From the NCBI GenBank assembly GCA_029226975.1, contig JAQXZB010000015.1, positions 1 through 64,000 of the forward strand: DNA of 64,000 nucleotides. The letters run 5' to 3'. Origin of the DNA: Clostridiales bacterium. Lineage in GTDB: Bacteria; Bacillota; Clostridia; UBA1381. This document shows, piece after piece, positions 2,380 to 42,107 of the stretch. Every line of letters starts with the position of its first letter. The first letter of the stretch is position 1. Under the pieces are notes generated by a model. The model saw nothing but the letters and a program-made list of their open reading frames with translations, had not been told where the DNA came from and did not search any database. The position numbers were made by a program, and so were the translations under genes.

Positions 2380-4026
2380 ATGAAAAAGAAGATGACGTCG
2401 GTTGGTCTGATTGTTTCAATGCTGCTTGGTTTATCTGCTCAGGCGGGCGCATTGGATGTAACAAATGAAGGTTATATTGACATAACCGGAGAAGGCGCAG
2501 CGGCGGGATCGGTAGTTACGGTGGAAATTATTGACGGACATACGAATCTATCGAATGAAGGCGTGTGGAGCAGCTTTTCGGATAACGGCGAAAAGACGTT
2601 GTTTATGGGAACAACCAATGCTGATGATGACGGAAAATATGAGTTGGGAGTTTTTCTTACAGACAGCGGAAGCTATATTGTAAGAGTGGGCAATGATAAT
2701 TTTGATGCTGTTAAAGAAGACGCGCTTAATTTCATAAATGAGGAAAAAATGAAAAACAGCATAGACGCATTGAAAGCTGCTGTGGACGGAGAAGACATTG
2801 ACGCAGTTAGGGAAGTTCTTGAAAATAACCGTTTTGATTTGGGCGTTTTTTCTAATGTGGGCTATGATGCGGATATGGAAAAGACCGCTGAAATACTTTA
2901 TCTTTACATAAAAAGTAATTTGGATTTAATAACCGAGGATACAATGGCGGTTATCATAGAAAAAGCCTGCATTTTATCCATTCTCTCAAGCGATTCTTTT
3001 GCGGGTTTTGAAAAATATTCGGACGGATTTGGTATAAGCGACTTAAAGGTTTCTGAATTTTATAAAGACACATACGCTCAGGAATTTACGAAAATGATGA
3101 AAAGTGATAATCCGAAAACTATCGAGGAGTACAACGATGCTCTTGAAAAAAATATATTGATCAGCCTTGTTAAGCTTAATGACAGCTCGGAAGATCTTAT
3201 GAAATGCATGAAGATGTATGCCGGGAAGATAGGAATTGATGAGACAAATATAACTTCGGATATGTGTAAGGCACTGATGGGCGCCGGTAATATAAACAGC
3301 TATTCGGACATTAAAAACTTTGTACAGAGCTATTTAAGCAAAAATAATAATCAAACCGGCGGCAGCGGTAGTACCGGGACGGGAAGCTACAGCGGAAAAA
3401 CATCAAGCAGCTCCTCCGGAGTCGGGAACATGACATATTCTCAGGAGTATATACCCGCCTCATCACAAACTTCGGTAGAAATTTTTAGTGATATGGAAGG
3501 ATACGGTTGGGCAAAAGGCTCGGTTGAGGGACTTTTCAAAAAGGGTATAGTATCAGGAAGAGACGGCGGGAGGTTTGAGCCCGGTGATAATGTAAAAAGA
3601 GAAGAAATTGTTAAGATGCTTGTAAAATTATTCGAGCTTTCGGTTATAGGCAGCAAGCTACCGTTTTTGGACGTGGCTGAAGATGAGTGGTATACGGAAT
3701 TTGTTGAATGTGCATACCACAGCGGTATTATAAACGGTTATTCAGACACGATTTTCGGTATTGGCGACCGGGTTTCAAGAGAAGATTTGGCAGTGATGAT
3801 TGTAAGAGCGGCTCAGGCGTGTGATTACACGTTTAAAAGTACGGCACAAACACAATTTGCGGACGAGGCGGATATTGCAGAGTATGCAAAGGATGCGGTA
3901 AAAATCCTTTCGGACGCGGGGATAATTGACGGTGATGAAAACGCAAGATTTAATCCCAAACAAAAAGCAACCAGAGCGGAAAGCGCAAAAATACTCTGGA
4001 CGACAATTCAAAACTGCACGAAATAA
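2380..4026 (+). CDS. Exported S-layer-homology protein
   Basis: First gene of the six-gene exported-protein operon. A signal peptide (residues 1-25, ending AQAGA) is followed by a small beta-type region to about 110 with alternating Val/Gly/Asp, a helical middle (about 115-325), a Gly/Ser/Thr linker (about 325-350), and three SLH repeats at about 370-545 (for example FEPGDNVKREEIVKMLVKLF, RFNPKQKATRAESAKIL). SLH repeats bind pyruvylated secondary cell-wall polymer, so the protein is probably held on the cell surface. No catalytic motif is recognised; a scaffold or glycan-binding role is possible. Start ATG 2380 follows AGGAGTGA. The next gene is 21 bases downstream. Confidence 0.8.
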   Translation: MKKKMTSVGLIVSMLLGLSAQAGALDVTNEGYIDITGEGAAAGSVVTVEIIDGHTNLSNEGVWSSFSDNGEKTLFMGTTNADDDGKYELGVFLTDSGSYIVRVGNDNFDAVKEDALNFINEEKMKNSIDALKAAVDGEDIDAVREVLENNRFDLGVFSNVGYDADMEKTAEILYLYIKSNLDLITEDTMAVIIEKACILSILSSDSFAGFEKYSDGFGISDLKVSEFYKDTYAQEFTKMMKSDNPKTIEEYNDALEKNILISLVKLNDSSEDLMKCMKMYAGKIGIDETNITSDMCKALMGAGNINSYSDIKNFVQSYLSKNNNQTGGSGSTGTGSYSGKTSSSSSGVGNMTYSQEYIPASSQTSVEIFSDMEGYGWAKGSVEGLFKKGIVSGRDGGRFEPGDNVKREEIVKMLVKLFELSVIGSKLPFLDVAEDEWYTEFVECAYHSGIINGYSDTIFGIGDRVSREDLAVMIVRAAQACDYTFKSTAQTQFADEADIAEYAKDAVKILSDAGIIDGDENARFNPKQKATRAESAKILWTTIQNCTK

Positions 4027-4047
4027 TTATTATACGGAGGTAAAAAA

Positions 4048-6846
4048 ATGAGAAAAATAATTTCATTGGTGCTTTGCTGCATTATGCTTATAACATCATT
4101 TACGGCAATTTATGCGGAGGAAGAAGCACAAAACTATAATTATGATAAAATTGTGGCGGTATTTCAAAATGCGGGAGTTATTGACAGCGGTGAGATGAAC
4201 GATGCGGACTTTGCGTCTGTGCTGACAAGAGCGGAATTTGCGGACTATGTCGCAAAGCTTATGAACGTTCATGCATCTGCAAACGATATAATGTATGTTG
4301 ATGTGCCCACGGATAATTTGTATGCAGGCAGTATAAACTATCTGGCGCAAAGCGGAATTTTATCGGTTCCTGCCGATATGAGATTTTATCCGGATGCGGC
4401 TGTTACATACGATGAGGCATTGGCAATGATTTTGCGTGCGGCAGGATATGAAATTGTCGCACAAGTGAACGGGGGTTATCCGGCGGGATACAGATCGGTT
4501 GCATCGACCCTTAAAATCAAAACTCTTGCAAAAAATGCAAATTCATTGACAATGGGAGAGGGATTAAGACTTCTGCTTGAGGGAGCAACGGCAGGAATGT
4601 ATGCGTCCGGTGAATCGGGAGCCAAGGGTTATCAGTTTAAAACGAAGGACGATACTCTTTTATCAAGTTATCATAATATATACCTGCAAGAGGGGAAAAT
4701 GTACTCGGCAAACGGCGCGAGTATAAGCAAGAGCTATTCGGCAGATGAAAATAAAGCGAATATAGACGGCTTGCTTTATGCTTGCCGACAGGATTTGAAT
4801 GCAGAGAATTTCCTCGGAAACAATATTGAGTTTTTCTACAAGCTTGATGATTCGGACGATAATGCGGAATTGATTTATCTCGAAAAGAAAAGCAGTGACA
4901 GTGAGATTGAAATATTATCGGAAAATATTGTTTCATTCGACCCTGCAAGCTTTACCGTAAAATATTTTAAAACAAGCGACTCTGCCAAGACAACAACGGC
5001 AACAATTATGCGTTCGGCAGGTATTGTTTATAACGGCAGACCGGATGACGGCAGTGTTTCGGCGCTTATAAATTCACTGAAGGATGATAACTGCCACGGA
5101 ACGATTTGTCTTAAGGATACCGATTCACAATCGGGATATGATTTGATAATTATCAAAAGATATAAAACCGCGGCGGTTACCGGATACAGTGACGATACAA
5201 TATATAATGCGCTCGACACCGCTCATAATATATGTACCAATGATTACGGCAATATGACTGTTAAAACACCGGACGGGCTTGAAACCAAAATACATAAAAG
5301 CTTCCCGTATGTTGCTGATATTGCCGAGTCAAAGGATAAAGAAAAATTGGAAATTATTATTTGTTCGGAATCCGTATCGGGAGTGTTAAATGAAGTAAAC
5401 GGTACAAATTCAATGGTTAAGCTTGATGACGAGTATTACAAAGTAGACGAAAGCTACTTAAATCAGGTTCAGGCTAAATTAACAATAGGTGTAGCGTATA
5501 CAATGTATATGAACTCCGAGGGCAAAATTACTTATTATGTCGCATCCGTAAATGATGAGTACAGGGTGGGATACCTCTTAAGAGCCACAGCCTATGAAGA
5601 AGATGAGTACAGAATCAAGATGCGGATATTCGACCATGATACAAGCGCTTTTGACTCATATATACTGGCGGATAAAGTAAAAATTGACGAAGTACAATAT
5701 GACAATGAGCCGTTAAAAGCTCTAAGCGCCATGCCCGGAGTAACGGGTATAGTGTCCGTAAATACCGATGACAGGGCAAATTCACCTAATGTAAAACCGC
5801 AGCTTATTCGCTACAAATCAGACGAAAACAAGAATATTACAGCTATAGACACAACAACACTTACCGATGAAGAGGACGAGGATAACACCTTGCAGTCAAT
5901 CCGTACCGCATCGGGGAAAAAAGTAAACTATAACGGTGGATTGAAAAGAATGGACCTTACAATTATCTATAACAGCACAAATACAAAGGTTATTGTTGTG
6001 CCGGAGCTGGACGATGAAGGCAAGATGGAGGTAGGTGGCGAGAAAACCTCCGATGTGGAAAGCTATTTCTCTACAATGAAAACAGATATTCTGGCAGATA
6101 AAGACAAGGAAATGTATGCATATAATTATAACGGATCCACTCCGTATGCAGACGCTGTTGTATATGTGGGAAGCGCAAAAACAACAAACTATAATGCTAT
6201 GATGTTTATAGAATTTATAAAGGCGCTTGACAAAGACGGTGAAGCGGCAGACGCTATGCGTGTTAATGAAGCGGGAGCGGAAAAGACATACATAATTGAC
6301 AAGCATACGGAAATTCCGGATGGTATTACTCAGGGAGATATTATCGGAATAGGTCAGGCTGCTGACGGAAGTATAACGCAGATTGATTTTATGTATGACC
6401 GAGAAACGGACAAGTACTGCGGTGACAGACTGTATAACGATAAGTATGATTACCATACAGGCGCTTGGTGGGACGATTATATTTATAATCTTCCCGGTTA
6501 TGAAGGATCATATGCATACAGAGATGTCGGCAGACAGATGTCTAAGGGCTATGTATATAAGAGGTTGGGGACATTCGTTCAGTTCTCATATATACCGGGT
6601 ACCTTGGAGGATATAGAACATGTGGATAAAGACGGAAAAATAACTAAGCACTTGTCATATGAATGCGTTGACCTAAACGGTCGTCCGATTGTGGTATATG
6701 ACAGCAATGCGCGCGGAAATAATCATGTGTCAAACGGAACAATAGATGACATACTCGATTATAAAACAGCCGGATACAGTTGTACAAAGATGATTTTGTA
6801 TTCATACGGCACAAAGGATTGCGCTTCTGTATTTATCTATAAATAA
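4048..6846 (+). CDS. Large exported protein with N-terminal SLH-like repeats
   Basis: 932 residues. A signal peptide (1-23, ending TAIYA) precedes three degenerate SLH-like repeats at about 30-180 (LTRAEFADYVAKLM, RFYPDAAVTYDEALAMILRA, LTMGEGLRLLL). The remaining ~750 residues are rich in Asp, Tyr, Asn, Thr and beta strands and match no family I can name. The order is reversed from the previous gene, where SLH repeats are C-terminal, suggesting two wall-anchored partners of one surface complex. Ribosome site ACGGAGG at about 4035. Gap of 12 bases to the next gene. Function unknown. Confidence 0.75.
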   Translation: MRKIISLVLCCIMLITSFTAIYAEEEAQNYNYDKIVAVFQNAGVIDSGEMNDADFASVLTRAEFADYVAKLMNVHASANDIMYVDVPTDNLYAGSINYLAQSGILSVPADMRFYPDAAVTYDEALAMILRAAGYEIVAQVNGGYPAGYRSVASTLKIKTLAKNANSLTMGEGLRLLLEGATAGMYASGESGAKGYQFKTKDDTLLSSYHNIYLQEGKMYSANGASISKSYSADENKANIDGLLYACRQDLNAENFLGNNIEFFYKLDDSDDNAELIYLEKKSSDSEIEILSENIVSFDPASFTVKYFKTSDSAKTTTATIMRSAGIVYNGRPDDGSVSALINSLKDDNCHGTICLKDTDSQSGYDLIIIKRYKTAAVTGYSDDTIYNALDTAHNICTNDYGNMTVKTPDGLETKIHKSFPYVADIAESKDKEKLEIIICSESVSGVLNEVNGTNSMVKLDDEYYKVDESYLNQVQAKLTIGVAYTMYMNSEGKITYYVASVNDEYRVGYLLRATAYEEDEYRIKMRIFDHDTSAFDSYILADKVKIDEVQYDNEPLKALSAMPGVTGIVSVNTDDRANSPNVKPQLIRYKSDENKNITAIDTTTLTDEEDEDNTLQSIRTASGKKVNYNGGLKRMDLTIIYNSTNTKVIVVPELDDEGKMEVGGEKTSDVESYFSTMKTDILADKDKEMYAYNYNGSTPYADAVVYVGSAKTTNYNAMMFIEFIKALDKDGEAADAMRVNEAGAEKTYIIDKHTEIPDGITQGDIIGIGQAADGSITQIDFMYDRETDKYCGDRLYNDKYDYHTGAWWDDYIYNLPGYEGSYAYRDVGRQMSKGYVYKRLGTFVQFSYIPGTLEDIEHVDKDGKITKHLSYECVDLNGRPIVVYDSNARGNNHVSNGTIDDILDYKTAGYSCTKMILYSYGTKDCASVFIYK

Positions 6847-6858
6847 GGAGGGTAAGAG

Positions 6859-9348
6859 ATGAAAAAAACGCTTTCAATGATCTGCCTTATAGTGTATCTC
6901 GTAACCGGCATGGGGTTTTCCGTTGCGTTTGCCGAGAGCTATGGTGAACAAATAAAAATAGAAACAGATCAAACAGCCGCCATTTTCTATGATAACGATG
7001 CTGCGGAATTTGCGATAAAGATTACAAACACAGCAAAACAGGCAGTGGAATACAGAGTAAAATATGAAGTGATTTTTAAAAACTACAACTATGATTCCTA
7101 TAAGGAAAATGTTGATGAGGTTTTAAAAAAGAGTACGGTAAGAGAAAATGTGCCGGTAAGCAAAACAAAAAGCTTCACCGATACCCTGTGCATTGATCTT
7201 AGCGGTGAAAAATACGGTTTGTACACTCTTAAGGCAACAGTGACGGACGCGGCAGGCGGCGTTGTCGCTCAAAATCAAATGCCCTTTGCCAAGTCAACCG
7301 TAAGCGAGAAGCTAAGCAAGACCTACGGCGCAGGCGTACATTTAACAAGATACGCAGATCCCAATGTTGTGTTTGAGCTTATGAAAAATGCCGGCTTGGG
7401 GCTTGCAAGAGATGACTTTAACTGGAGTAAGTACGAATTGTCAGAAGGAGAGTATGCTCTTAGTGAAAGCCAGGTTTCTACCCTTAAAAGCGCGAGAAAA
7501 TACGGTATAGATATGCTTGCGATTTTAACGGGCTACAACAGCCTCTACAGCCAAAATGCCACATACCCAACTATTCCGGACGACAGCGTGTATGATGCGC
7601 AGACGGGAAAAACATATGCGGACGCATATAAAAACTATGTTGCAAGCTTTGTGAGTGAGCCTCTTGTTAAAAATACGGTCAGTATGGTCGAGGTTATGAA
7701 CGAACCAGCGGCAGTGGTACCGGGCGGACTCGCCGAGCAGGAGGCCGGACCGCTTTATGTAAAAGCGGGCAAAGCCTATGCAAAGGCGACCGCCGCCGCA
7801 TATGATGCCGTAAAAGAAACAAATCCGAATATAAAGGTGGGCGCGTTTTCTACCTTTAGAATCGGTTACGAGGCGGACTATTTTATTGACGGTGCTTTAA
7901 GCAATATGAATAAGCAATACTATGACGCTTTTACGATTCATGACTATAAGGAACGGGGAACAGACGGTGACCCCGAACCGGGGTATCCTACGGAATCAGA
8001 AAAAAATTGGTATCCGCATTTGGACGGCGCAGTGGCAACCATTAAACATTTTGATGATTTAATGTGCGGAAACACACAAGCTCCCTACACAAAGAATAAG
8101 TACACCGCTTTTTCAAACAAAGAGCGTTGGTATACGGAGCGAGGATATTCAACCGATGATAAGCCCGGCGACAGCAATGTTTCAAAAAATCCTTATTATG
8201 ACCAGGCGCTGAATCTTGTTCGGTCCAAAATCGTTACGGACGCATATAACAACGGCACTATGACGGATAAAACATGGATATATGATTTTTCCGACGATCC
8301 TCTTGAAAAAGTGGATAACAGCATAAGAGAATCATCCTTTGGAATTACCGAGTCATATACGGATGCGGTGCCTTATGCCGCAAAACCGGCATATATCGCC
8401 GTTGCAAATTATAACAGCCTTGTTGCCGATGCCACAAAATGCGAGAAGGTGGACGGAGATGATATTAACGAGGCGGCGGGCGATTATATTTATAAATACA
8501 CCTGCCCCGAAAGAGAGGTATATATCCCGTACCATACAAAGGGCGGCGAACCGGCGCAAATATGCGAGCTTGCATTTGAACGCATAGGCAGCCAAAAAGA
8601 AGTGCATGTGTATGATTTCTGGGGCAATGAGATTGACGAAAACGATATATATCAAGACGGTAAATATCAGCTTACAAAGCAGCCCTATTATATATGCGTA
8701 GGAACTCCTGTAAACAGAAATGCGACGCAGGGAGATACAAATGAAAGAGATATAATTACAATTGAGGGTAAAATTGCGTCGGGGCAAAGCGGTAAAAGGG
8801 TGTCGCTGGTCGTTGTAAAGTCCGGTGAAGAACTGAGCATAGGAAACATTACCAATGCCATTGCTCTAAACCAAATGCTGACCGATGAGGGCGGAAGCTT
8901 CAGCTTTGAATGCAGTGTTCCTAAGCAGAACGGTCCGTATAAGGCATATGTCACATCCGAGGACTGCGATATTCCCGTGGTGTTTGATATTATGGCATCG
9001 CAGGTTAAGAAAATAAATATTTCCTTATTAAACGGAATGATTAAGCTAAAGTCAAATGATTTGAAAATGGTGGATTTGTCAAACCTGTCCGCGATTGTTG
9101 AATATTCAACCGTAGCAGAACAAATTCCGTATCAAATGTATTGCGCCCTGTATAAAAACAATGTCTGCCTTCATGTTACAAACATCTCCGACAGATTGGA
9201 AAGCATGAGCAGCGGAAACAATATATATCCGATGACTTTTGCCGGGGACAACGGTGAGAATGTGGATTTTGATAAGGTAATGCTGTTTATGTTCGACGGT
9301 AACGGAGCATTAAGACCTCTGTGCTCGGCATATACGGTAAAGGAATGA
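6859..9348 (+). CDS. Exported glycoside hydrolase, clan GH-A-like
   Basis: 829 residues. A signal peptide (1-25, ending SVAFA) is followed by a beta-sandwich (about 28-150) and a TIM-barrel-like region (about 155-540) with barrel-type signatures: YGAGVHLTRYADPN, GLARDDFNWSKYE, and VEVMNEP, where Glu282 would be the acid/base. Glu427 in WYTERGY is a candidate nucleophile. A barrel-closing beta domain and two more beta domains follow, the last ending FMFDGNGALRPLCSAYTVKE. The NEP motif places it in clan GH-A (GH5/GH39/GH2-type); I cannot assign a family or substrate. It has no SLH repeats, so it is either secreted or held by its SLH neighbours. Confidence 0.7.
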   Translation: MKKTLSMICLIVYLVTGMGFSVAFAESYGEQIKIETDQTAAIFYDNDAAEFAIKITNTAKQAVEYRVKYEVIFKNYNYDSYKENVDEVLKKSTVRENVPVSKTKSFTDTLCIDLSGEKYGLYTLKATVTDAAGGVVAQNQMPFAKSTVSEKLSKTYGAGVHLTRYADPNVVFELMKNAGLGLARDDFNWSKYELSEGEYALSESQVSTLKSARKYGIDMLAILTGYNSLYSQNATYPTIPDDSVYDAQTGKTYADAYKNYVASFVSEPLVKNTVSMVEVMNEPAAVVPGGLAEQEAGPLYVKAGKAYAKATAAAYDAVKETNPNIKVGAFSTFRIGYEADYFIDGALSNMNKQYYDAFTIHDYKERGTDGDPEPGYPTESEKNWYPHLDGAVATIKHFDDLMCGNTQAPYTKNKYTAFSNKERWYTERGYSTDDKPGDSNVSKNPYYDQALNLVRSKIVTDAYNNGTMTDKTWIYDFSDDPLEKVDNSIRESSFGITESYTDAVPYAAKPAYIAVANYNSLVADATKCEKVDGDDINEAAGDYIYKYTCPEREVYIPYHTKGGEPAQICELAFERIGSQKEVHVYDFWGNEIDENDIYQDGKYQLTKQPYYICVGTPVNRNATQGDTNERDIITIEGKIASGQSGKRVSLVVVKSGEELSIGNITNAIALNQMLTDEGGSFSFECSVPKQNGPYKAYVTSEDCDIPVVFDIMASQVKKINISLLNGMIKLKSNDLKMVDLSNLSAIVEYSTVAEQIPYQMYCALYKNNVCLHVTNISDRLESMSSGNNIYPMTFAGDNGENVDFDKVMLFMFDGNGALRPLCSAYTVKE

Positions 9349-9366
9349 TGGTAAGGCGGTGAAAAA

Positions 9367-12300
9367 ATGAGAATAAATAAGATTTTGAGCGCGCTGCTTT
9401 CGGTTTGTGTTCTTGCGTCCTCCTGCGCATTTAGCGCATATGCCGCGGAGGAAAATGAACAAAACAGCGATATTGCATATGCACAGCTTAGCTCAAATGG
9501 TTCAAAAAAACAAAATATCAGCAGTATAAGTCAAGGCTCCAGTGCAAGTGAAACCTATATTTCCGTAACGGCGGCAGATAGGGAAGGATGGCAGATGAAG
9601 TCCTCCTCACCGAATATTTATATCGATATTGACGATAAATTTGCCCATGAGGTGGAGGATGGTACTTCCTTTGACTTGGAGATTGATTATTATAACGCAT
9701 TGACGGGCTTTTTCCTGGTGAAGTATGACGCGTTAAACGTGGAACAAAAGCACGCGCATTATGAGTATTTGAACAGACAGGATAAATGGAAAACCGTAAA
9801 GATTACCTTGGATGACGCATATTTCGGCGGCAGATGCGCCGGTGCGGATATAGTGCTGACCACATCGACAGTGGGCGGAAGAGGGGCGGTTGTTGAGAGG
9901 TCTACGGCTCCCGTCACCATAGGTGCTGTAAGGATAGTAAAGCACGAAAAGAAAAATCCTCTGCGTCTTAGCGTAAATATAGACGAGTCGGGAAATTCCT
10001 TTGAGTGGTACAAAAAAGAGAAAAAAATCGTAAACTCCTTTACAAATCTCCGCGATACGGATATTACGGCACAGGTAACCTGCTGGGGCGAATCCCGGGA
10101 GAAAGTAAAGTGCTTTGAAACGGTAAACACCATTACGGTAAAGGCGGGAGAAACAACCGAGCTTCCGATAAATGTTGACAGTGACAGATGCGATTTGTAT
10201 GACTATTATGTAAAGATTGAATCTGATGCGGATAACGTACATTCGCTTTTGCAGCCTACGCAGTTTGCAATTTTGAAAACCGATGAAAACGGCTATAAAA
10301 ATCAGGACGTATACATATGCGCTCACCCTGACCAGGACCATACGAATGAGGAAATGGAAACGATGGCGGATATGATAAATAAAAGTAATGTGGGCGGTGT
10401 AAGATGGGCGGTACTTGCAGGGGCTGTGGAGTCAAAATCGGGAGAGGATGTTGTAGACAATACTTATCTCGGAACATGGCTTAACGCTTTAAGAGAGCGA
10501 AATCTAAAGGCTATGCCGATATTGCACGGACCGAATGTAACGGGGTTTACTTATGAAATGGTTGCGAATACGCCTGAGAGCTTGGCAAAGCAGAAGAGCG
10601 AGGCTGTAACCTTAATGAAGCATGCCGCCGATATAATTGATTGGTATGAGCTGTATAACGAAACCAACCATACCTTCAGCGAAGAAAAAAACGAAAGACT
10701 CGGCGGAGTTGAAAACTATGGTAAGTATGTGGATGCGGTAGCCGATGCCAGAGATAAATATGACCCGACAGCAAAAGTTATGGGCTTTGCTACCTGTGAC
10801 TTGGGACGTGAAACGCAAAAGCTTTTCCATGATAAAACCATTGACGGCGGTGCGTATACAAACCTGGACGCATATTCGTCACACCCTTACTCAACCTCGT
10901 TTACCGAAACGGGCGGAGCCGAAACCCTGGTGTTTAAGTGGCGTGATTATATCAAGGAAAGAACAGGAAAAGAACTCCCGATTGTAAGTGATGAGATTGG
11001 ATTTACAACAGCCGACTCAATGACTAACGGCGATCAGAGAACGCATGGTAATCTGATGACAAGATATGATATATATTATAAATCAATCGGACTGTCAGAG
11101 GTATGCGCGTTATACAACTTTGAGCGAAAAGGCTCCGTAGACTATGACCGAGAGGACAGCTTCGGACTTGTGGAATCGGCATTTCGTCATGTTACCAACG
11201 CTCGCGAAACAAAGCTATGTATGCCTATGGAAGGATATGTTGCCGTAACCGGACATAACTATATCTTTGCAGATACGGATTTTGTAAAAAAGCTTACCGA
11301 TAAGGATAACTTATATATAAATCTTTTCCGCAGCCAAAAGTATAATCAGGACATTTTGACATTAAATACCGCTGAGAGAAAAGCAAGAAAGCTTGTAACG
11401 GTGGATTTGGGTACCGATAATGTTGAGGTTTATGACGATTACGGAAATATGACTCCGGTTACCGGCCATGACGGAAAGTTCACTTTCTGGGTTGATGAGA
11501 GAGTAACGTATGTAAAAGGCAACTTTACCAAAGCCGAGCTTATGGAGGATAACAGCGCATTTTTGGAAATATCGGACAGCAATGTCAACAGTGCGAATAA
11601 TGACGTAACCGGCATATCCTATATAAATAATACGGATAAGGAATATGACGTTGAGGTTGTCGAGTCGGAAACGGTAAAGCTGTATTCGGGAGATAAGCTT
11701 GCAAAGGGTAAATCCGAGGTTTTGCTTATATCTAACGGCGAACTGGGAACAACGAGTATGGTTACAATAAACATAAAAGACGGCGATAAAATCGTTCAAA
11801 GCACACAGATATTTATCACAATAGATAAATCCGTAACGGCAGATGTGGGGCTTTCGCTTATCAGCCCCGAAAATGTTGATAACTGGATGATGAACCTAAG
11901 GCTTACCAATACGTCAATGCTTAATGTGGCAAAGGGTACCATAGAGTTCACATCTCCGAAGGAGTTTAAGGCCTTGGGAAAAATCAGTATAGGCAATATT
12001 CCCAGAAGCTGTACCTCCGAATACAATATAAAGCTGCCCAAGCTTGTGAAAAAAGGAATGTATGATGTAAGCTTTGACTTGAATTTAAACAGCGGCGAAA
12101 AGTATTCATACAGCCAAAAAGCGGATATGACAATTGCAAAGTACGCCCAAACAAAGCCCACTATAGACGGAAATATCGAGCCTGAGGTATGGAAGTATAA
12201 TACATGGATGTATGCGGATAAGGCTGAACAGCTAAAGGAAAATACCGGCTGGGCAGGACCTGATGACTTAAGCGGCAGAGCGTCGATTATGTGGGATGAG

Positions 12301-12774
12301 GATAATCTGTATTTTGCCGCCGTTGTAACGGATAATGTATTCTATCAGCCCTACTCCGGATGGGACACATGGCAAGCGGATAATATCCAAATCGGTGTGT
12401 TCTACGGTGAAGAGTCATATACCATATCCGGACAGCGTTCGACAACCTTCCATGAATTGTCCATGGCTCATACGCCTTTGGGAGATGAGGTTTACAGAAC
12501 CCTGTCCCAGGATAACTATTACACTGCAGGAAAGTTTGAAAACGCCGATATATGCATTGTAAGAAAAGGCAATCAGACCATATATGAGGCGAAAATTCCA
12601 TGGGAAGGCTTCTTGCTGCCCAATCAGCAGCCCAAAGAGAATGATAAGCTCGGTTTTTCGTATATGATTAACGAAAGTGACGGCGGAGCGAGAAACGGCT
12701 GGATAGAATATGCCAGCGGTATCGGATCTGCAAAGGATACTACGCTGTTTACCTGGCTTACACTTCTTAAATAA
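9367..12774 (+). CDS. Exported glycoside hydrolase with C-terminal CBM9-like module
   Basis: 1135 residues. A signal peptide (1-26, ending AFSAYA) is followed by a beta-rich region to about 310 and a TIM-barrel-like domain (about 315-640) containing YELYNETNH (Glu432, likely acid/base) and PIVSDEIGFTT (Glu543, likely nucleophile), the paired glutamates of clan GH-A. Beta domains follow, then a C-terminal region from about 930 (PTIDGNIEPEVW, SIMWDEDNLYFAAVV, WEGF) that reads as a CBM9/DOMON-type glycan-binding module. Family and substrate are not assignable by eye. Eighteen bases separate it from the preceding gene. Together the two hydrolases suggest a backbone plus side-chain pair. Confidence 0.72.
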   Translation: MRINKILSALLSVCVLASSCAFSAYAAEENEQNSDIAYAQLSSNGSKKQNISSISQGSSASETYISVTAADREGWQMKSSSPNIYIDIDDKFAHEVEDGTSFDLEIDYYNALTGFFLVKYDALNVEQKHAHYEYLNRQDKWKTVKITLDDAYFGGRCAGADIVLTTSTVGGRGAVVERSTAPVTIGAVRIVKHEKKNPLRLSVNIDESGNSFEWYKKEKKIVNSFTNLRDTDITAQVTCWGESREKVKCFETVNTITVKAGETTELPINVDSDRCDLYDYYVKIESDADNVHSLLQPTQFAILKTDENGYKNQDVYICAHPDQDHTNEEMETMADMINKSNVGGVRWAVLAGAVESKSGEDVVDNTYLGTWLNALRERNLKAMPILHGPNVTGFTYEMVANTPESLAKQKSEAVTLMKHAADIIDWYELYNETNHTFSEEKNERLGGVENYGKYVDAVADARDKYDPTAKVMGFATCDLGRETQKLFHDKTIDGGAYTNLDAYSSHPYSTSFTETGGAETLVFKWRDYIKERTGKELPIVSDEIGFTTADSMTNGDQRTHGNLMTRYDIYYKSIGLSEVCALYNFERKGSVDYDREDSFGLVESAFRHVTNARETKLCMPMEGYVAVTGHNYIFADTDFVKKLTDKDNLYINLFRSQKYNQDILTLNTAERKARKLVTVDLGTDNVEVYDDYGNMTPVTGHDGKFTFWVDERVTYVKGNFTKAELMEDNSAFLEISDSNVNSANNDVTGISYINNTDKEYDVEVVESETVKLYSGDKLAKGKSEVLLISNGELGTTSMVTINIKDGDKIVQSTQIFITIDKSVTADVGLSLISPENVDNWMMNLRLTNTSMLNVAKGTIEFTSPKEFKALGKISIGNIPRSCTSEYNIKLPKLVKKGMYDVSFDLNLNSGEKYSYSQKADMTIAKYAQTKPTIDGNIEPEVWKYNTWMYADKAEQLKENTGWAGPDDLSGRASIMWDEDNLYFAAVVTDNVFYQPYSGWDTWQADNIQIGVFYGEESYTISGQRSTTFHELSMAHTPLGDEVYRTLSQDNYYTAGKFENADICIVRKGNQTIYEAKIPWEGFLLPNQQPKENDKLGFSYMINESDGGARNGWIEYASGIGSAKDTTLFTWLTLLK

Positions 12775-12792
12775 TAAAATGGAGGATGAAAA

Positions 12793-14556
12793 ATGAAAAA
12801 GACAGTAATTTTTGCTATGATATGCTCGCTGCTTCTGTCCATGGTGCAAGTCGGTGCTCATGCGGAGGAATTTGATCCGTTTGTGTGGTACTATGACTTC
12901 AATGATTATGAAGCGGCCCTCGGAAGCGGCATAGGCCCCGACAGCAATTGGAGGGTTGCTTATATGCAGTCCGCAGGCTCATACATAGTATCGGAAAAGA
13001 GAAAGAAATTCGGAAGCTATGTGGACAGTGACGGAGCAAAGGTAATGCGCGTTGCGGGTCAGGGAGAACCGGTATTGCTTTTTAAGGATATGGTAGATTC
13101 CGGCTCGCTTCATGTAAGCTTTGATATTAAGTTTAAAACCATAAAGGATATGTATCAGGGATTTTATGACAGCCACAACTATCCCTCCGACAGCTCCAGG
13201 GTTTTGGAGAGTAACTATTCCATAGGCCCTTGGTTTAAAAGAGACAATAAGATATATTATTCTTATAAAGGCGCAAAGGACGGCGATGATATGTGCTGGA
13301 CCAATCACTGGAAGGCTCCGGCAGACAGCGGTCTTACCTTTAAAACAAATACATGGCACCACGTCGATATGTGTTTCGGAGATTACGGCTCCAATGATAC
13401 CGCGATTGCAAAATACTACATAGACGGACAGCTTATAAACCAAAACGATGTGTATTTTAAAGGCTGCGGCGGCTTTAAGGCCTTGTATTTTAGGGATGAA
13501 AATTCCGAGTTCTATCTCGATAACGTCTATGTAAGCAGCTTTCAGGATAATGAGTATCTGCATGGCTTTTTGGAAAATGATGTTTTGGACAAGGACACAA
13601 AAAGCCTTCGTCTTAAGCTTTCAGAGCCTTTAAACGGCGCTGTAACCAATGAGGACGTAATAATAACAAATGCACAAACGGGTGAGGAGGTTACGGATTT
13701 TACGGTAACCTCGGACTCTGACAGGTATGTGGATATTACCGTAAACGAGGAGCTTGCTCAGGGACGCTATAACCTTATCCTTAAGGATAATGTAACGGGA
13801 GCATATTACAATAACCCCATGTGGTCGAGCGTAACCTTCAGAACACCGCCCCGGTATGTGGATGACGTACTTTGTCCCGATGTGGAAAAGGTTTCATATA
13901 TAAATTATAAAGGCAGGGAGCAGAGTGCGGCAGATAGTATATCAACAGCCACCGACGCCGTTAAGATTTCGTTCTCGACAGAGATTATGGACGCTGATAT
14001 TATGGATAATATCAAGCTGTTAAACGGAGATGAAGAATGCGGCTATGATTACATGATTGACGGAAAAAACGTTGCTCTGAAATTAAATCGGGTTTTGGAG
14101 CCTGATACGGAATATCGCCTGTCAATCAGCGGGAATGTTTCAGCAGCGGACAGCGCGTCTGCAACAATGGGACTTGATTATGAAGAACAATTTAAGACCC
14201 TAAGCGATGAGCTGTTTGACGTTGTGGCTGAGGATATAGAAAAAGGGGAAGGGGGTGAAACATACTTCAAAGCAAAGCTTGTCAAAACAGATTACAGCGA
14301 TAACCATAAATACACCTATGCACAGGCGGCTTATAAAAAGCACACTGTGACAGGTGAAGACGGCAGCGAAAAAACATATCTGGAAATGACCGCCTTAAAC
14401 CGTATTCCGGTTATCGTTCCGGCGGCGGATAAAATGATTATGTATTTAGGTGAGGAACAGCCGATAAATGCGGGGGACGCAGATATGGCAGCCGGATATA
14501 TTTGGCTCTATCCCGACAATTCGCCGATTGTCACAAAAAGCCTTAATCTGAAATGA
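12793..14556 (+). CDS. Exported LamG-like multidomain protein
   Basis: 587 residues with a signal peptide (1-24, ending VGAHA). Residues 28-250 read as a concanavalin-A-like (LamG) jelly roll (FNDYE...LHVSFDIKFKT...FYLDNVYVSSF). Two Ig-like (bacterial Ig/SLH-linker type) domains follow at about 255-460, then a C-terminal beta domain ending in a YIWLYPDNSPIV segment like that of neighbouring proteins. No catalytic residues are evident, so glycan binding is more likely than hydrolysis. Ribosome site TGGAGG at about 12780. A 70-base gap follows. Confidence 0.68.
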   Translation: MKKTVIFAMICSLLLSMVQVGAHAEEFDPFVWYYDFNDYEAALGSGIGPDSNWRVAYMQSAGSYIVSEKRKKFGSYVDSDGAKVMRVAGQGEPVLLFKDMVDSGSLHVSFDIKFKTIKDMYQGFYDSHNYPSDSSRVLESNYSIGPWFKRDNKIYYSYKGAKDGDDMCWTNHWKAPADSGLTFKTNTWHHVDMCFGDYGSNDTAIAKYYIDGQLINQNDVYFKGCGGFKALYFRDENSEFYLDNVYVSSFQDNEYLHGFLENDVLDKDTKSLRLKLSEPLNGAVTNEDVIITNAQTGEEVTDFTVTSDSDRYVDITVNEELAQGRYNLILKDNVTGAYYNNPMWSSVTFRTPPRYVDDVLCPDVEKVSYINYKGREQSAADSISTATDAVKISFSTEIMDADIMDNIKLLNGDEECGYDYMIDGKNVALKLNRVLEPDTEYRLSISGNVSAADSASATMGLDYEEQFKTLSDELFDVVAEDIEKGEGGETYFKAKLVKTDYSDNHKYTYAQAAYKKHTVTGEDGSEKTYLEMTALNRIPVIVPAADKMIMYLGEEQPINAGDADMAAGYIWLYPDNSPIVTKSLNLK

Positions 14557-14626
14557 CATCTGTGCAAAGAAGTGAAAATTTCATAAAACCAACCAAAATA
14601 TAAGAATTTGAATGGAGGAATAAAAA

Positions 14627-17600
14627 GTGAAAAAAAGTAAAAAGTTGATTAGCTTAGCAATCAGTGCGGTAATGTGTGCGGGAATGGCAGTTCCCGTAAA
14701 TGCGGCAGCCGGCACCGGTGAGGTTTTTGTATCTCATTTTGACGACTTCTCCGGCTGGACATCCGTTAAGGGCGCAGTTGATGATTTGCCCGATGGCTTC
14801 TTTGCCCTTGACGGTGGATTTCATCCGGAAAGAGCAACGGCTACAGGATCGGTTACTGACGATAACTATGCGGAGTCAAGATTATTTAAGCTTGGAAACG
14901 GTGCGATGGTTTGTTATCAGTTTGATAATGTGTATAAAACCGGTAAGCGCAGAGTAAGCTTTGATTTAAAGTTTAATGAAGTCCCTACAGGTAAATTCTT
15001 TATAAGCGGACACGAGAATAACGGCAATGACAACCCATATGATTATTGGCAGGCAGAGCCGACAAACGGCACCGATGTAAAGTGGGATTACATACCTTAT
15101 GTTAATATTGAGGGCGGTACATTTAAAGCCCTAAGGCCCGACTGGTCACTGGGGGCTGAGTGGACAGGCGGAAACTTTAACGATGGGTGTTTGCATAAGA
15201 TTGAAATGGTTTTTGACTATGACAATGATACAATCACATCATACGTTGACGGCACCGAGGTTTACACCGGAAAAAGAAGCCAAGCAAACAAAACCTTCTA
15301 TTTTACCAATGAATCGGGCGTAGACGTATATATCGACAACTTCGCCGTATATCACGGATCGGATCCAAGCTATGCGGACGGGTGCAGAATGGTAAAAGAG
15401 ACATATAACAGAGGATTGGTGCCTTTAACGGGAGGAAATGTCCTGGTTAATATGTCGCGGGCAATAACCGATGTGTCGGAAACCGATTTTACGGTAAAAG
15501 ACTCGGACGGAAATGTGGTTTCAAATGCAGTTGTTTATGCATCTAAGTGGGGAGGAGCTACCGTACAAGTGGATTTGAATACACTTCCCAAAGCAGGTAT
15601 GTATACCCTTGAGTATAGCGGTGCGGTAAACTCCGTAAACTTTATTGCGGGAGAAGACGTGACAATAGACAATGTTGACACCGCGCCTTATTACTATATG
15701 AACGAGGACTTTGGCAGCTATGCGGGCGGTGTTCCGGCTCAGTGGCAGGCAACCGTAAACTCAAGTACTACAACCAAGCCGACCGCCGGAACGGACGCGG
15801 CTAAGGGTACAACGCTTAAAATGCCTAAAGGAGTTGTTTCAAGCTATATGAACAAGTTCGGCGAATCCTTCAAGTCCGGAAAGCTTAAGGTTGAGTTTGA
15901 TATGAAAGCATCAGGCAAAGGCTGGGGTGTTGGATTTATCCGCGAAGCCGACTGGCAGGACACAGATTATGAGCAGCATCTTGCCATAGGTAATATAAGC
16001 GGCGCTGATGGGGATATTTACACAAGCGGCCTAGGAGAAAAGATGCTTTCCCAAAAAATGGAGGATGCTGCCATAAGCAATAGTGATTGGAATCATGTTT
16101 CAATCACCGTAAATATGACAAACGACAGATATTACTTTGATGTAAACGGAAAAAAAGCTGATGTATCACAGCCGTTGCATGAATATGGAAGATGGGACGT
16201 ATGTTGGTATGATGTGGTAAAAAGCACTGATACAACGCTTACGGGAGCAGACGCATACAAGTGCGGTCTGAACGGTATCAGACTGTATTCGGACGGTACA
16301 AGCGATGTTGAATTTGACAATGTTAAAATCTATGCGGAAAATTCGGACTATATATCCGAGGATTTTAATGATTGGGGAGCTAATCGATCTGGTAATAACG
16401 TGCCGGCAGGTTACTACCGTATGCAGGATTTATACAACCCGAATTCTTTGGCGCCTGCCGAAGGCAGCGGCGGAACAGAAAAAACCGGTGCGGCAGTAAA
16501 GAATACCGAACAGATAAGATTGGGTCTGACTCATCCGATAAATAACCTTAAAAAGACAAAGTTTGCCGTTGAGTTTGATGTAAAGCCGAATGAAACTGTA
16601 AAAAATTCGCTGAAATTCGCATTGTATCCCAAAGAAAAATTTTATGGGCAGAAGCAGAATGGCGATTCATCGACATGTCTGCACGGACAAGGAGTTTATC
16701 AAGATCCAATAATAGCTATGGGCAATATGGGTGTTCCAGGCAAAGTAATTTATCATTCAGGTCCGTGGGGAGAAGGTACCGCTCCGATGACTGCCGACGG
16801 TCAAACCTTGGATTTTGAATGGGGTCGGTGGAATCATATTAAGTTAATATTTGATCCGACTAACGGTATGACCATAACTTTGACAAAGCCGAATGGTACA
16901 GTACTTGAATCGACAACGATTCCGACAAGCAGTGTTATTAATTATAACAAGCTTTGCAATGACTATAACAATATTTACGGAATAGGCTTAAATGTGGACA
17001 AGTCGATGACATCAACGGCGGAAGGTGATACTCCGATTGATAATTTAAAGGTTTATGAGCTGGGAACGGTAACAAAGCCTTCCGTAGTGTCGGTAAATGT
17101 AATAGGCATAGATGACGAAAGTACGGTATTGAGCAATGATATTACAGAGGTTTCAACTGCGACAAAGGCTGTTGAGGTGAACTTTACATCACCGGTAGAT
17201 GAAACCGATGAAACAATAGCTAAGAAGATAACACTTACCGATTCAAACGGAGCGGCTGTTGCGACAGGAACTCTTTCAAGTGACAAGACAAAATACACTC
17301 TAAACATCAATCAGGCTCCGGCAGACGGTTCATATGCAACCTTAAAAACAAGCTATACCATAAGCGGCACAAGCTCTGTTGCACAGATTTCCGACGCTGT
17401 TTCAAAGACCTTGAAGTTCGTCAGCCCGGCAGGAGAACGCGGTGTAAAGATAGACAGCATGAGGCTGATGAAGAAAATAGCCGGAAGACAGATTGGAACA
17501 AGCCGCCAATCACCGGACGCATGGGTTAGGGCAGAATCGAGAAATGATGCGGATGCTGCAGAGTACAAGGTTTACATAACCGGTACAAATGCAACAGGCG

Positions 17601-17815
17601 AAGCGGACAGCACCACATACAACTATATAAATGCTGTATACGGTGATGACAGAGGTATAGAAGCCTTAGATACCGCAGTAATGACAAAGCTTCCGGTACC
17701 GGCAGATCTTCAGTTTACAATAGAAGAAAACGTGCCTGAAGTTGGAGCAAATCAAACATGGAAGACCTTTGTATGGACCAATAACATGGTTCCGGTGGCT
17801 CCGGTATTACAGTAG
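14627..17815 (+). CDS. Exported protein with three LamG-like domains
   Basis: 1062 residues from a GTG start (14627) behind TGGAGGAATAAAAA. Signal peptide 1-26 (ending AVPVNA). Three jelly-roll domains are visible at about 28-245, 355-585 and 595-805, each closing with an IDNF/FDNV/IDNL-type strand (VDVYIDNFAVYHG, VEFDNVKIYAE, PIDNLKVYELG). Ig-like domains lie between the first two and at about 810-915. The C-terminal ~125 residues end TWKTFVWTNNMVPVAPVLQ. The multivalent carbohydrate-binding layout suggests a surface or shed glycan-capture protein. Last gene of the operon; a terminator pair follows at 17849-17914. Confidence 0.7.
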   Translation: MKKSKKLISLAISAVMCAGMAVPVNAAAGTGEVFVSHFDDFSGWTSVKGAVDDLPDGFFALDGGFHPERATATGSVTDDNYAESRLFKLGNGAMVCYQFDNVYKTGKRRVSFDLKFNEVPTGKFFISGHENNGNDNPYDYWQAEPTNGTDVKWDYIPYVNIEGGTFKALRPDWSLGAEWTGGNFNDGCLHKIEMVFDYDNDTITSYVDGTEVYTGKRSQANKTFYFTNESGVDVYIDNFAVYHGSDPSYADGCRMVKETYNRGLVPLTGGNVLVNMSRAITDVSETDFTVKDSDGNVVSNAVVYASKWGGATVQVDLNTLPKAGMYTLEYSGAVNSVNFIAGEDVTIDNVDTAPYYYMNEDFGSYAGGVPAQWQATVNSSTTTKPTAGTDAAKGTTLKMPKGVVSSYMNKFGESFKSGKLKVEFDMKASGKGWGVGFIREADWQDTDYEQHLAIGNISGADGDIYTSGLGEKMLSQKMEDAAISNSDWNHVSITVNMTNDRYYFDVNGKKADVSQPLHEYGRWDVCWYDVVKSTDTTLTGADAYKCGLNGIRLYSDGTSDVEFDNVKIYAENSDYISEDFNDWGANRSGNNVPAGYYRMQDLYNPNSLAPAEGSGGTEKTGAAVKNTEQIRLGLTHPINNLKKTKFAVEFDVKPNETVKNSLKFALYPKEKFYGQKQNGDSSTCLHGQGVYQDPIIAMGNMGVPGKVIYHSGPWGEGTAPMTADGQTLDFEWGRWNHIKLIFDPTNGMTITLTKPNGTVLESTTIPTSSVINYNKLCNDYNNIYGIGLNVDKSMTSTAEGDTPIDNLKVYELGTVTKPSVVSVNVIGIDDESTVLSNDITEVSTATKAVEVNFTSPVDETDETIAKKITLTDSNGAAVATGTLSSDKTKYTLNINQAPADGSYATLKTSYTISGTSSVAQISDAVSKTLKFVSPAGERGVKIDSMRLMKKIAGRQIGTSRQSPDAWVRAESRNDADAAEYKVYITGTNATGEADSTTYNYINAVYGDDRGIEALDTAVMTKLPVPADLQFTIEENVPEVGANQTWKTFVWTNNMVPVAPVLQ

Positions 17816-17922: not shown

Positions 17923-20211
17923 TTAAGATTTTATTTTTCCTTCCTTATACAGGCTGCGGTATTCACTGGGCGAAATACCGGTTTTTTGCTTAAAGGCTCT
18001 TACAAAGGACGAGTGGTTTGTAAAGCCGGACATAACGCCTACATCGGCTATCTTCACATCATCGGATATCAAAAGCTCCTTTGCCTTGCCTATACGAAGC
18101 TGTGTAAGATATTGCTTGAACGAGGTGCCAATCTGCTGCTTTATTGCCTTTGACATATACTTTGGCGTTGTATTAAAGGTTTCGGCAAGATTATCGAGAT
18201 ACAAATCCTCTGTATAATGCTCCTGTATATACTCGGCAATATTGGAAAGCTTATGTCCCGATGCATTGTCAAAGGTCGTTATATTCTCGGTCAGTTCAAG
18301 AATATAGTGTAAAATCGAATTGTCCGAGTCGGTGGTGGTTATATCATTTAACAGCTCCGATTCGGTTTTTGCCTTAAAATCCGGAATACGAAACTTTTTA
18401 ATCTCTATAACCTTTGAAAACGCATTGAAAATACCTGCATATATATTGGCGCGGCTTTGGGGAGGATTTTTTGCGCAGGAGGCAAATATATCCTTTATAA
18501 GCTCCGACGCGGACTCTCCGTGACCGGTGAGCATATAGTTTATTAAAATGTTTTCGTTATATATATTGGAGGAATAATTTTTAAAGCTTGTGCTGTCAAG
18601 CATCTGCACCTTGTTTTTATTCATGGTATTGAATATATCAAACAGAGCCTCCTTGTGGGATTGACGCAGTCCGTCTATACCTTTATAAATATCGCCCATG
18701 CCCACAAACACATCGATGTATTCCTCATCTGCCGCGAAAAGCTTTTTTATATGCTCTATTGTTAAGTTAAGCTCACTGCCATCCTCCGATTCGATATTTA
18801 AAATGAGATACAGCGTATTTTTTGTATTGGGCAGAGAAAACGTCAAAAACGATGACGCAAATACCGCCTCTATTGCCCGATATATCTCTGTGTAGAGCGG
18901 TACATCAAGCACAACATACTTGTCGGAGGACGCGCTCTTTTGGGATATATTTACGGCGACCGACACGAAATAATCATGCTTAAATATCATTTTGTTCATT
19001 TGCTCATCTAAGCAGGTTGTAGGGTCATTTAGAATATCGACAAGGTATTTCTCCTGAGCGTGTGACAGTGACACTGCAAGATTGCGGGTCAGGTCGATAT
19101 TTTCGTTTAGCAGACTGCTTACTGTATCATTTACATAGGAAATAATATCGTTGTGCTTTTTGGATTGAGGACTGCTGCGTTGTAGGTTTTTGGCTATGGA
19201 TTTCCATGGCTTTATAAGTATTGCGGAGCCGAAATACGCATACAACAGCATAAGCAGCAGTAAAATCACACAAATTACGATAAGGCTTATCATGGTTTTG
19301 TGTATATACCTTTCTATATCTGAATAGGGAACAGCGGCAATATATGTATAACCGAATATATTTGAGCGGGGCTGAGATGATATAATAAAATGCTTTTTAC
19401 GGTTAATTTTTGTATCGCCGGTAAAGTAGTAATTTGATTCATACTGCTTTTTTATCAAAGACATATTTATCGAGCCGGCATTATCGCGGTCAACGGTTAT
19501 AACTTCTCCGGTATGATTGTCAATCATATAAAGACAGCTGTTGTCGGTGAATTTATATGTACGGAAATTTTCAAATATATTCTTGGCATTTATATTGAAA
19601 ATAATAAGGCTGTTTCTTTTTGAGCCTACCGGAAAAACTGCCGGTACAACGGGGTGCGAAGCCTTATCCGTGGTATACCATGCGGGTGATGAGTCAAGAT
19701 ACTTTGACATTCCGTTTCCGGTATTGTAACTCACCCAAAAATCAAGATCATAATTATCATATTTATAAATGTCATTAAAATAATGCGCCATATCGTATAC
19801 GCCGCTTGTGCTTACCACAAAGCCGGAGGAACGATTTACAATGGCAATGTTATCAAGATACTGAAGTCTTGAATTGATTGTCTGAAGGGTGGTCTGAACC
19901 CTTCTGGTAATATCTCTGTCTAACTGATTTGCATTTTGTTCGGACTCGGACACATATTTTGTATCCTGATTGGACATAAGCACGGACGCATATGCGCTTA
20001 GATTTGATATTTCATCTTCCGAATAGCGCAAAAATTTGTTCAGCTCATTTGTATATGCCGATGTGAGCACCGAGCGATATTGATTTGTGTAATACGTGCT
20101 GCTTATGAATGCAAAAAGCAATATTAAAAGCACCGGAACAAACAGCATTAAAAAAAATCTATGCATTGTTGTGCCGTTTTTTGTGGTGAAAAATGTGTTC
20201 TTTAACTTCAT
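17923..20211 (-). CDS. Membrane-bound AraC-family regulator with extracellular sensor
   Basis: 762 residues. Transmembrane helix at about 18-40, an extracellular sensor region of about 250 residues (Cache-like layout), a second helix near 300-328 (SLIVICVILLLLMLLYAYF), a cytosolic linker region, and a C-terminal double helix-turn-helix (about 660-758; LDNLAETFNTTPKYMSKAIK, then FTNHSSFVRAFKQKTGISPSEYR). This architecture is typical of Clostridia/Paenibacillus regulators that sense an extracellular sugar and activate a neighbouring importer. It diverges from the ABC importer genes, and the conserved block at 20372-20429 lies between. ATG 20211 follows CGGAG. Ligand unknown. Confidence 0.85.
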   Translation of the reverse strand: MKLKNTFFTTKNGTTMHRFFLMLFVPVLLILLFAFISSTYYTNQYRSVLTSAYTNELNKFLRYSEDEISNLSAYASVLMSNQDTKYVSESEQNANQLDRDITRRVQTTLQTINSRLQYLDNIAIVNRSSGFVVSTSGVYDMAHYFNDIYKYDNYDLDFWVSYNTGNGMSKYLDSSPAWYTTDKASHPVVPAVFPVGSKRNSLIIFNINAKNIFENFRTYKFTDNSCLYMIDNHTGEVITVDRDNAGSINMSLIKKQYESNYYFTGDTKINRKKHFIISSQPRSNIFGYTYIAAVPYSDIERYIHKTMISLIVICVILLLLMLLYAYFGSAILIKPWKSIAKNLQRSSPQSKKHNDIISYVNDTVSSLLNENIDLTRNLAVSLSHAQEKYLVDILNDPTTCLDEQMNKMIFKHDYFVSVAVNISQKSASSDKYVVLDVPLYTEIYRAIEAVFASSFLTFSLPNTKNTLYLILNIESEDGSELNLTIEHIKKLFAADEEYIDVFVGMGDIYKGIDGLRQSHKEALFDIFNTMNKNKVQMLDSTSFKNYSSNIYNENILINYMLTGHGESASELIKDIFASCAKNPPQSRANIYAGIFNAFSKVIEIKKFRIPDFKAKTESELLNDITTTDSDNSILHYILELTENITTFDNASGHKLSNIAEYIQEHYTEDLYLDNLAETFNTTPKYMSKAIKQQIGTSFKQYLTQLRIGKAKELLISDDVKIADVGVMSGFTNHSSFVRAFKQKTGISPSEYRSLYKEGKIKS

Positions 20212-20429: not shown

Positions 20430-20590
20430 GAGATCACAAAAAAATGCGGGATTTTGCTTGGAGCGAAACCTTGCGTGAAAACTGCAATGGGTTAAAAGTT
20501 GCAAAATAAAATCCGGCGTAACGGGGTTTTGTTTCAGTGAAAAATTCCCGTCAGGGAAAATCAAAATTATCTATAAAAGGAGAGAGTAAA

Positions 20591-22012: not shown

Positions 22013-22051
22013 TTTGTGCCGCCTACGGCGGCAGAATGGAGGAATAACATA
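22010..22051 (+). repeat. Hairpin-ribosome-site leader, copy 1
   Basis: Directly after the binding-protein stop, TGATTTGTGCCG starts a hairpin GCCGCC-TAC-GGCGGC followed by GAATGGAGGAATAA and the permease start. The same leader with a compensated hairpin recurs at 36808-36851. In this position it may stabilise the upstream mRNA and so keep the binding protein in excess. Confidence 0.6.
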
Positions 22052-22978: not shown

Positions 22979-22991
22979 GGGGTGAGTGGAT

Positions 22992-41680: not shown

Positions 41681-42107
41681 TACCGAAAAATACTTGACCC
41701 GCAACAACAAAAATGCTATTATGTATGTATAAAATTGTTGATTTGATAACCGACAGAGCGAAAAAAACAATGTCGCATATAGAGTCTTGATAAAACGAAA
41801 AAATGAAAAGAATACAAATAATTGAATAATAGCTTGTCTTAAATAATAAGCGGAGGTGTGTTTTGCATCTCCGCTTTAAGTTAAAAAATATAATTAACCT
41901 CAATTTCTAATGACAGTCTGATTTTTGCGTTGTATAATAAAGGTATGAAATGCTGATGAAGAAATGAAATCCTTACTTGAAGCTGTTTTAAAAATTGACA
42001 TATTGAGTTAATAAATTGCCTATTGACCTTACGGCGTTTAATGGGATATAATCATATTACATTCAAGAAGTTTATTCGGCTTTTGGTCGGTGGAATGGAG
42101 GATTAAT
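41681..42107 (+). other. Gene-free interval before the PL8 lyase
   Basis: About 430 bases, A+T rich, with no convincing gene. It contains an 11-bp hairpin AAGCGGAGGTG (41848-41858) with CATCTCCGCTT (41866-41876) without a T run, and two promoter candidates (41911-41939 and 42024-42053). A 15-codon frame near 41967 has no ribosome site and is ignored. Confidence 0.5.
42024..42053 (+). promoter_or_regulatory. Promoter of the PL8 lyase gene
   Basis: TTGACC, 18-base spacer, TATAAT, about 55 bases before the start. A second candidate, ATGACA-17-TATAAT, lies near 41911-41939. Confidence 0.65.

Follow-up and report, generated by a model that had tools for sequence, protein, structure and literature searches.

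Two adjacent genes for exported SLH proteins, here called A and B, form a recurring module. We describe the pair from the window, the 64,000-nucleotide (nt) stretch of contig JAQXZB010000015.1 from a Clostridiales bacterium that was analyzed here, where it opens an operon of exported proteins. The distribution of the pair in sequence data makes it a well-supported proposal that A and B act together. Beyond this, we lean toward a reading in which A and B are a two-component surface platform of polysaccharide loci in gut Clostridia, with SLH-free enzymes and binders gathered; the wall location, the contact between A and B, and the gathering of the SLH-free proteins at the same place are what we infer.

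The operon and its locus

The operon consists of six open reading frames (ORFs) for exported proteins, all on the forward strand and separated by intergenic gaps of 12 to 70 nt; signal-peptide-like starts on all six proteins were judged by visual inspection and a rough hydrophobicity count. The first gene encodes protein A (2380..4026; 548 aa), with a signal peptide and a C-terminal SLH trimer recognized by Pfam, alignment, and an AF2 model. The second encodes protein B (4048..6846; 932 aa), with a signal peptide and a degenerate N-terminal SLH trimer, as read from Pfam and from a table of SLH arginines. Behind them lie genes for two GH39-like enzymes of 829 aa (6859..9348) and 1135 aa (9367..12774), a free LamG-like/Big_5 protein of 587 aa (12793..14556), and a free LamG-like protein of 1062 aa (14627..17815). 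None of these four proteins has a Pfam SLH match up to an E value of 0.1. Pfam thus confirms the initial annotation in placing SLH repeats on only the first two of the six exported proteins, C-terminal in one and N-terminal in the other, although the single N-terminal match in B (E 9e-6) understates a family that has three SLH units.

The two proteins read earlier as hydrolases bear out that assignment, since both match the solved glycosidase 5jvk in searches run as small alignments (E 3e-16 for the 829-aa protein and 6e-30 for the 1135-aa protein, which also matches PslG at 1e-9). We take 5jvk to be a GH39 glycosidase. The 5jvk match marks the catalytic-type region of the 829-aa enzyme at about nt 7177-8478. 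In the 1135-aa enzyme, which has relatives in other A/B operons, the catalytic-type region spans about nt 10114-11154, and a CBM9-type domain (Pfam CBM9_1) forms the C terminus (nt 12163-12765). For the last two proteins the label LamG is weak: Laminin_G_3 matches both, but below the Pfam cut-off (E 0.0016 and 0.021). A clear Pfam match in the 587-aa protein is Big_5 (E 1.8e-10). Both proteins have orthologs in the operon's best relative, locus L145, which comes from another family. This locus keeps all six genes in identical order, at 57, 53, 59, 74, 53, and 49% identity, so that a search for the same operon order, proposed earlier as a check, returned a positive answer and the grouping cannot be put down to chance. 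A further locus, L147, has the first four genes in order at 50-75% identity.

Beyond the operon, an AraC-type regulator (17923..20211, reverse strand; HTH_18 and GGDEF_2), whose N-terminal part is membrane-spanning by sequence, likely controls the locus, judging from the role of its family. A sugar-type ABC importer (20537..23903, forward strand) comprises a solute-binding protein (20537-22012; SBP_bac_1) and two ORFs that are permease-like by sequence and position (22016-22978 and 22986-23903). A downstream family 8 polysaccharide lyase (PL8; 42090..44672, forward strand), with the N, middle, and C domains of Lyase_8, is possibly part of the same pathway. It is one of the catabolic genes found beyond the importer, which also include a KDPG/KHG aldolase. 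With a regulator, a solute-binding protein, GH39-like enzymes, and a PL8 lyase co-located in the window, we class it as a polysaccharide-utilization locus. An ORF at 45124-46011 starts like an aldo/keto reductase and continues, by eye, like an alpha/beta-hydrolase; it may be degenerate or chimeric.

Recurrence of the pair and its gene neighbors

The genome that contains the window comprises 2.8 Mb. An initial SLH scan, in which the best 150 of 205 candidate matches were scored, revealed side-by-side genes of A and B size on contig after contig. Leave-one-out profiles recovered A in 11/11 cases (E 6e-16 to 3e-37) and B in 11/11 cases (E 9e-78 to 1e-105), each from 204 proteins, and most of the proteins recovered share only 15-23% identity with the first row of the alignment. 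Searches of the whole genome identified 14 A-type genes, 3 matches to the Ig domain only, and 22 B matches that extend beyond the SLH part. Each of the 14 A-type genes is either next to B or joined to it in frame, and in the 11 standard pairs the gap from A to B is -4 to +23 nt.

What surrounds the pair varies by locus. The enzymes nearby include GH65, GH38, a GH42-like protein, GH5 with GH94, GH10, and a pectinesterase-like protein, and other neighbors carry CBM9, F5/8C, and more; several have no Pfam match at all. Among 59 neighboring proteins from 18 paired loci, counted over the 25 commonest families so that single occurrences may be hidden, were 10 permeases of the binding-protein-dependent type, solute-binding proteins, AraC regulators, GH10, GH1, a fucosidase, and a few unrelated enzymes. 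In one locus (L034), two closely related SLH proteins of 961 and 889 aa (1819-4704 and 12556-15225; E 1e-146) enclose a solute-binding-like gene and an A/B-like pair (1187 and 875 aa).

We also compared A and B distances in a set in which 60 of 73 loci gave both domains and several rows represent one genome twice (e.g., L050/L079, L053/L078, and L057/L081). The correlation over all pairs was high (r 0.86), driven by orthologs. For paralogous pairs of one genome, the Mantel r was 0.11 (p 0.24, 14 pairs), and a second set gave -0.26 (p 0.87, 9 pairs); partner-specific coevolution within genomes is thus unsupported by these tests. The absence of correlation, which speaks against our reading, perhaps reflects sequence saturation.

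Distribution of the pair across Clostridia

The other named loci come from MAGs of Clostridia; for many of these the source is goat, deer, buffalo, or rabbit gut, and some are labeled Ruminococcus, Oscillospiraceae, or Clostridiales. In a set of 41 genomes, the B profile, including its SLH part, matched all 41 (weakest best E 7e-51), and the A profile matched 24. Of the best 150 A matches listed for these genomes, 87 had a neighbor among the best 150 B matches, just downstream in 82 and just upstream in 5. When 20 of the remaining 63 listed A matches were sampled at regular steps, B was directly adjacent in 17, separated by an intervening gene in 1, and absent in 2. Of 20 sampled from the 63 B matches without a listed A, 8 were accompanied by A or a three-SLH protein (immediately upstream in six, immediately downstream in one, and beyond an intervening gene in one), and 12 were not. 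The order is reversed, B before A, in loci L109 and L110, and in L110 a further SLH protein follows the pair.

A class-wide search with A then provided ten picked loci from six families other than that of the window, two of which (L133 and L134) are the same DNA as L086 and L084. A adjoins B in 9 of these 10 loci; in the exception, L138, B is separated from a three-SLH protein by three unscanned genes. Among 398 genomes sampled across the phylum, the window's own included, 8 contain the beta part of B, which indicates a restricted family.

Fusions of A to B and to other exported proteins

A and B are fused in three genomes. In the window's own genome, a 1873-aa protein (L035) combines an A domain, three SLH repeats, and B, and two other genomes encode clean A-B fusions of 1438 and 1412 aa (L143 and L144). 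A second protein of the own genome (L036), on a contig open at both ends, has three SLH repeats and B, with no A domain detected.

A is also joined to other exported sequences. Six of the 11 named loci in which A is complete (L078, L080, L082, L083, L085, and L087) encode it as the C-terminal part of a protein of 1273-1656 aa. Because five of these cases, those of the L078 type, are close relatives, we count two arrangements rather than six events. Big_5 was recognized in four of the five fused N-terminal parts scanned (L083 is without it), and LamG gave no match in the same five up to E 0.05. Free exported relatives of the L078-type fused parts occur in L077, L079, L081, and a locus on contig C9 of the window's genome (profile E 1e-37). 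For the fused part in L085, phmmer identified two free relatives in L084 (E 2e-107 and 3e-85), one of which directly precedes A.

Architecture of A and B

Protein A begins with an Ig-like domain (residues 21-118, nt 2440-2733), followed by a helical domain (residues 121-323, nt 2740-3348), a Gly/Ser-rich linker modeled at low confidence (residues 324-367), and the SLH trimer (residues 369-548, nt 3484-4023). The AF2 model built for this protein from a 12-row alignment (mean pLDDT 69.6) shows these four parts. Pfam recognizes three SLH repeats (E 7e-28), and in A and B together it finds, up to E 0.1, only SLH plus one match below the cut-off. The best structural match of the SLH part is the Sap SLH structure 3pyw (TM-score 0.80 by target length). 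The TRAE-motif arginine (SLH-Arg43), which binds the pyruvylated cell-wall polymer, is present in each of the three SLH units of A (Arg407, Arg467, and Arg532), as it is in all three units of all 12 alignment rows. Pyruvyl transferases of the CsaB type go with SLH cell-wall anchoring; the own genome has three PS_pyruv_trans genes, and the family also occurs in 8 of 14 control genomes.

Protein B consists of an SLH region (about residues 33-183, nt 4144-4596) and a beta-rich chain of about 740 aa (nt 4615-6843), with boundaries read from the alignment. The motif arginine is missing from two of its three SLH units and present in unit 1 only (Arg61 by our count). An AF2 model of the L079 relative (24% identical; 13-row alignment; mean pLDDT 80.8) combines an SLH trimer with about 680 aa of small beta-barrels. 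The SLH part, the only one with a clear structural match, aligns with the SLH domain of SpaA at Z 17. Single barrels reach at most Z 7.3 against OB/SH3-like chains, which may be merely a common arrangement. No carbohydrate-binding or enzyme fold stood out for the barrels in structure comparison, which excludes nothing, and comparison of the B profile with itself showed no significant internal repeats in the beta part. OmpM proteins combine SLH with an outer-membrane barrel, and we considered a porin-like B of this kind. We set it aside, as the model has many small barrels and not one large one, and in 8bym, 8bys, and 8bz2 ("SLH domain-containing protein") the B profile matched the SLH part alone.

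A distinct class of B genes has no A in the flanks fetched. Each of these solo B proteins is at least 50% identical to another, and orthologs occur in four families. Their neighbors (46 proteins from 10 loci, counted over the 25 commonest families, with the same limit for single occurrences) are mostly housekeeping genes, e.g., TsaD, LepA, and triosephosphate isomerase, along with three SLH proteins, one GH77, and one UxuA. In the window's own genome, we saw no B-type match that resembles the solo B present in many relatives; it may have been lost, left unassembled, or diverged.

Solo and paired forms differ in their SLH arginines. All 13 solo B proteins have the arginine in units 1 and 3 and none in unit 2, against 25/30, 1/30, and 2/30 paired B proteins for units 1, 2, and 3, respectively; solo B is one orthologous group, so the difference in unit 3 (13/13 versus 2/30) may be a single event. 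In the available part of the SpaA report, the arginine is likewise described in units 1 and 3, not 2, and that of unit 1 serves the primary pocket (PMC6081394). Since the unit 1 arginine is kept in most paired B proteins, B may anchor itself. The pattern fits a division of labor in which A would have taken over part of the anchoring from paired B.

Could B then be a locus-specific subunit of an S-layer? Housekeeping S-layer-like paralogs would enter the lattice on induction, with A as a linker. The combination of an SLH trimer with a long beta chain and the solo orthologs near mostly housekeeping genes in four families speak for it. The SLH trimer fold is shared with SpaA of Paenibacillus alvei and Sap of Bacillus anthracis, and solo B shares the arginine pattern of SpaA, so far as the portion of the source at hand covers these proteins (PMC6081394). 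However, the beta part of the L079 model has no clear match among known S-layer assembly domains, with Sap aligned at low probability only, and solo B is itself only presumably an S-layer protein. Paired B also differs from these S-layer proteins in mostly lacking the unit 3 arginine and in being bound, paralog by paralog, to its locus. We consider a lattice subunit unlikely.

Under the platform reading that we prefer, A would be a wall clamp whose SLH trimer, with three arginines, holds the secondary cell-wall polymer and presents the Ig-like and helical head on a flexible linker. B, a putative paralog of a solo S-layer-like protein with a chain of small beta-barrels on a weakened SLH base, would serve as a shell or scaffold element next to A. 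With a pair, enzymes, binders, an importer, and a regulator particular to each locus, the polysaccharide would be cut and bound at the wall, near the importer.

Fate of the SLH-free proteins

The initial annotation had proposed that the SLH proteins are docking scaffolds for the enzymes and binders of the operon. The ordered recurrence of A and B and their fusion in three genomes fit this proposal in showing that the two belong together, and Big_5-bearing proteins that are free in some sister species form the N-terminal part of A in others. For the proteins of the window itself, the comparison is less favorable. Its 587-aa and 1062-aa proteins have no clear relation to the A-fused parts (profile comparison probability 4% and 25%; no phmmer match at E 1e-5), and neither of its enzymes is fused to A in the loci examined. 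The proposal is therefore supported in part, and docking of these SLH-free proteins is a prediction that extends the reading of the pair.

In a serious rival reading, to which we give an even chance, the wall would hold A and B, and the SLH-free proteins would diffuse into the medium or hold the polysaccharide through their own CBM or LamG domains, the operon providing co-regulation only. Such a mixed secretome is compatible with an A/B module and contradicts our reading in one respect, the gathering of the free proteins. It is favored by the CBM9-type domain on the 1135-aa enzyme, by scans that revealed no cohesin- or dockerin-type partner for the free proteins, and by the lack of clear fused relatives of the window's LamG-like proteins. 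There is also a precedent in Paenibacillus sp. JDR-2, where, in the accessible part of the source, one regulon contains two glucanases, one SLH-anchored and the other secreted (PMC4765114). Against it stand the A-fused relatives of free Big_5-bearing proteins in sister loci, which suggest that some proteins of this type, at least, benefit from being retained at the wall.

An Ig-like domain related to that at the N terminus of A lies near the C terminus of the 829-aa enzyme (nt 8728-9003; E 4.7e-8), and through this one domain every A profile matches the enzyme (E 2e-7 to 1e-10). A different, C-terminal Ig-like domain follows it (nt 9064-9327; E 1.7e-12). This type is common on exported SLH-free proteins, ends in a motif of the Leu-Trp-Asp/Asn type, and occurs in 72 of the 759 proteins of the fetched loci, at the C terminus in 52; within the window it is found on the 829-aa enzyme and the PL8 lyase only. 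We considered it as a docking tag. Among large exported-like SLH-free proteins, it is present in 31/106 from paired loci, 7/50 from elsewhere, and 0/4 from solo loci, a difference too weak for such a claim.

Comparison with known surface systems

Our literature search returned no description of such an SLH pair in polysaccharide loci. The genome paper on Monoglobus pectinilyticus reportedly lists many SLH proteins, so an earlier account of the pair may exist. SusC/SusD is a conserved ordered pair that recurs in the polysaccharide-utilization loci of Bacteroidota and works as an outer-membrane importer with a lid. The A/B pair resembles it as a conserved ordered gene pair found at many loci with changing enzymes, but we saw no relation between the proteins in the Pfam scan; the A/B pair has SLH regions and a sugar-type ABC importer nearby. 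A bolder version of our proposal would make A/B a Gram-positive, S-layer-derived counterpart of SusC/SusD that marks most polysaccharide loci of the clade, with the wall re-tiled by a substrate-specific anchor and scaffold and with SLH-free proteins docking without cohesins or dockerins. We hold this version to be a long shot.

The closest likeness among Gram-positive systems is Paenibacillus sp. JDR-2. In the part of the source that was available, it has many SLH proteins (77), co-regulated regulators, ABC importers, and exported enzymes, and anchored and secreted enzymes side by side (PMC4765114). There, according to the same part, the enzyme itself bears the CBM and SLH (PMC4765114), whereas the anchors described here are a separate conserved pair without a recognizable enzyme domain that is repeated from locus to locus.

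If our reading is right, the pair would make polysaccharide loci easy to recognize by sequence in a group of gut Clostridia that is largely uncultured, which is useful where several neighboring exported proteins have no Pfam match. It would also represent a noncellulosomal way to organize sugar degradation on the Gram-positive wall, in which two proteins without recognizable enzyme domains decide whether the enzymes of a locus stay on the cell.

The cellulosome shares with our proposal the idea of a wall-bound scaffold plus enzymes, but this operon has no Pfam cohesin or dockerin match, bearing out the earlier remark that dockerins are not visible. The genome does encode both: cohesin matches fall on contig C30 and, below the cut-off, on C116, and its two dockerin matches fall on C30 and C61. 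None lies on a contig that holds any of the 14 A genes. These scans rule out assembly through cohesin-dockerin pairs for this operon, apart from a diverged pair that would escape Pfam, and we leave it only the slimmest of chances. Contig C30 (14500-29670) holds a separate, small cellulosome-like locus: two adjacent genes encode one protein with three cohesins and another with one cohesin and three SLH repeats, and genes for a dockerin-bearing protein and further SLH proteins come after them.
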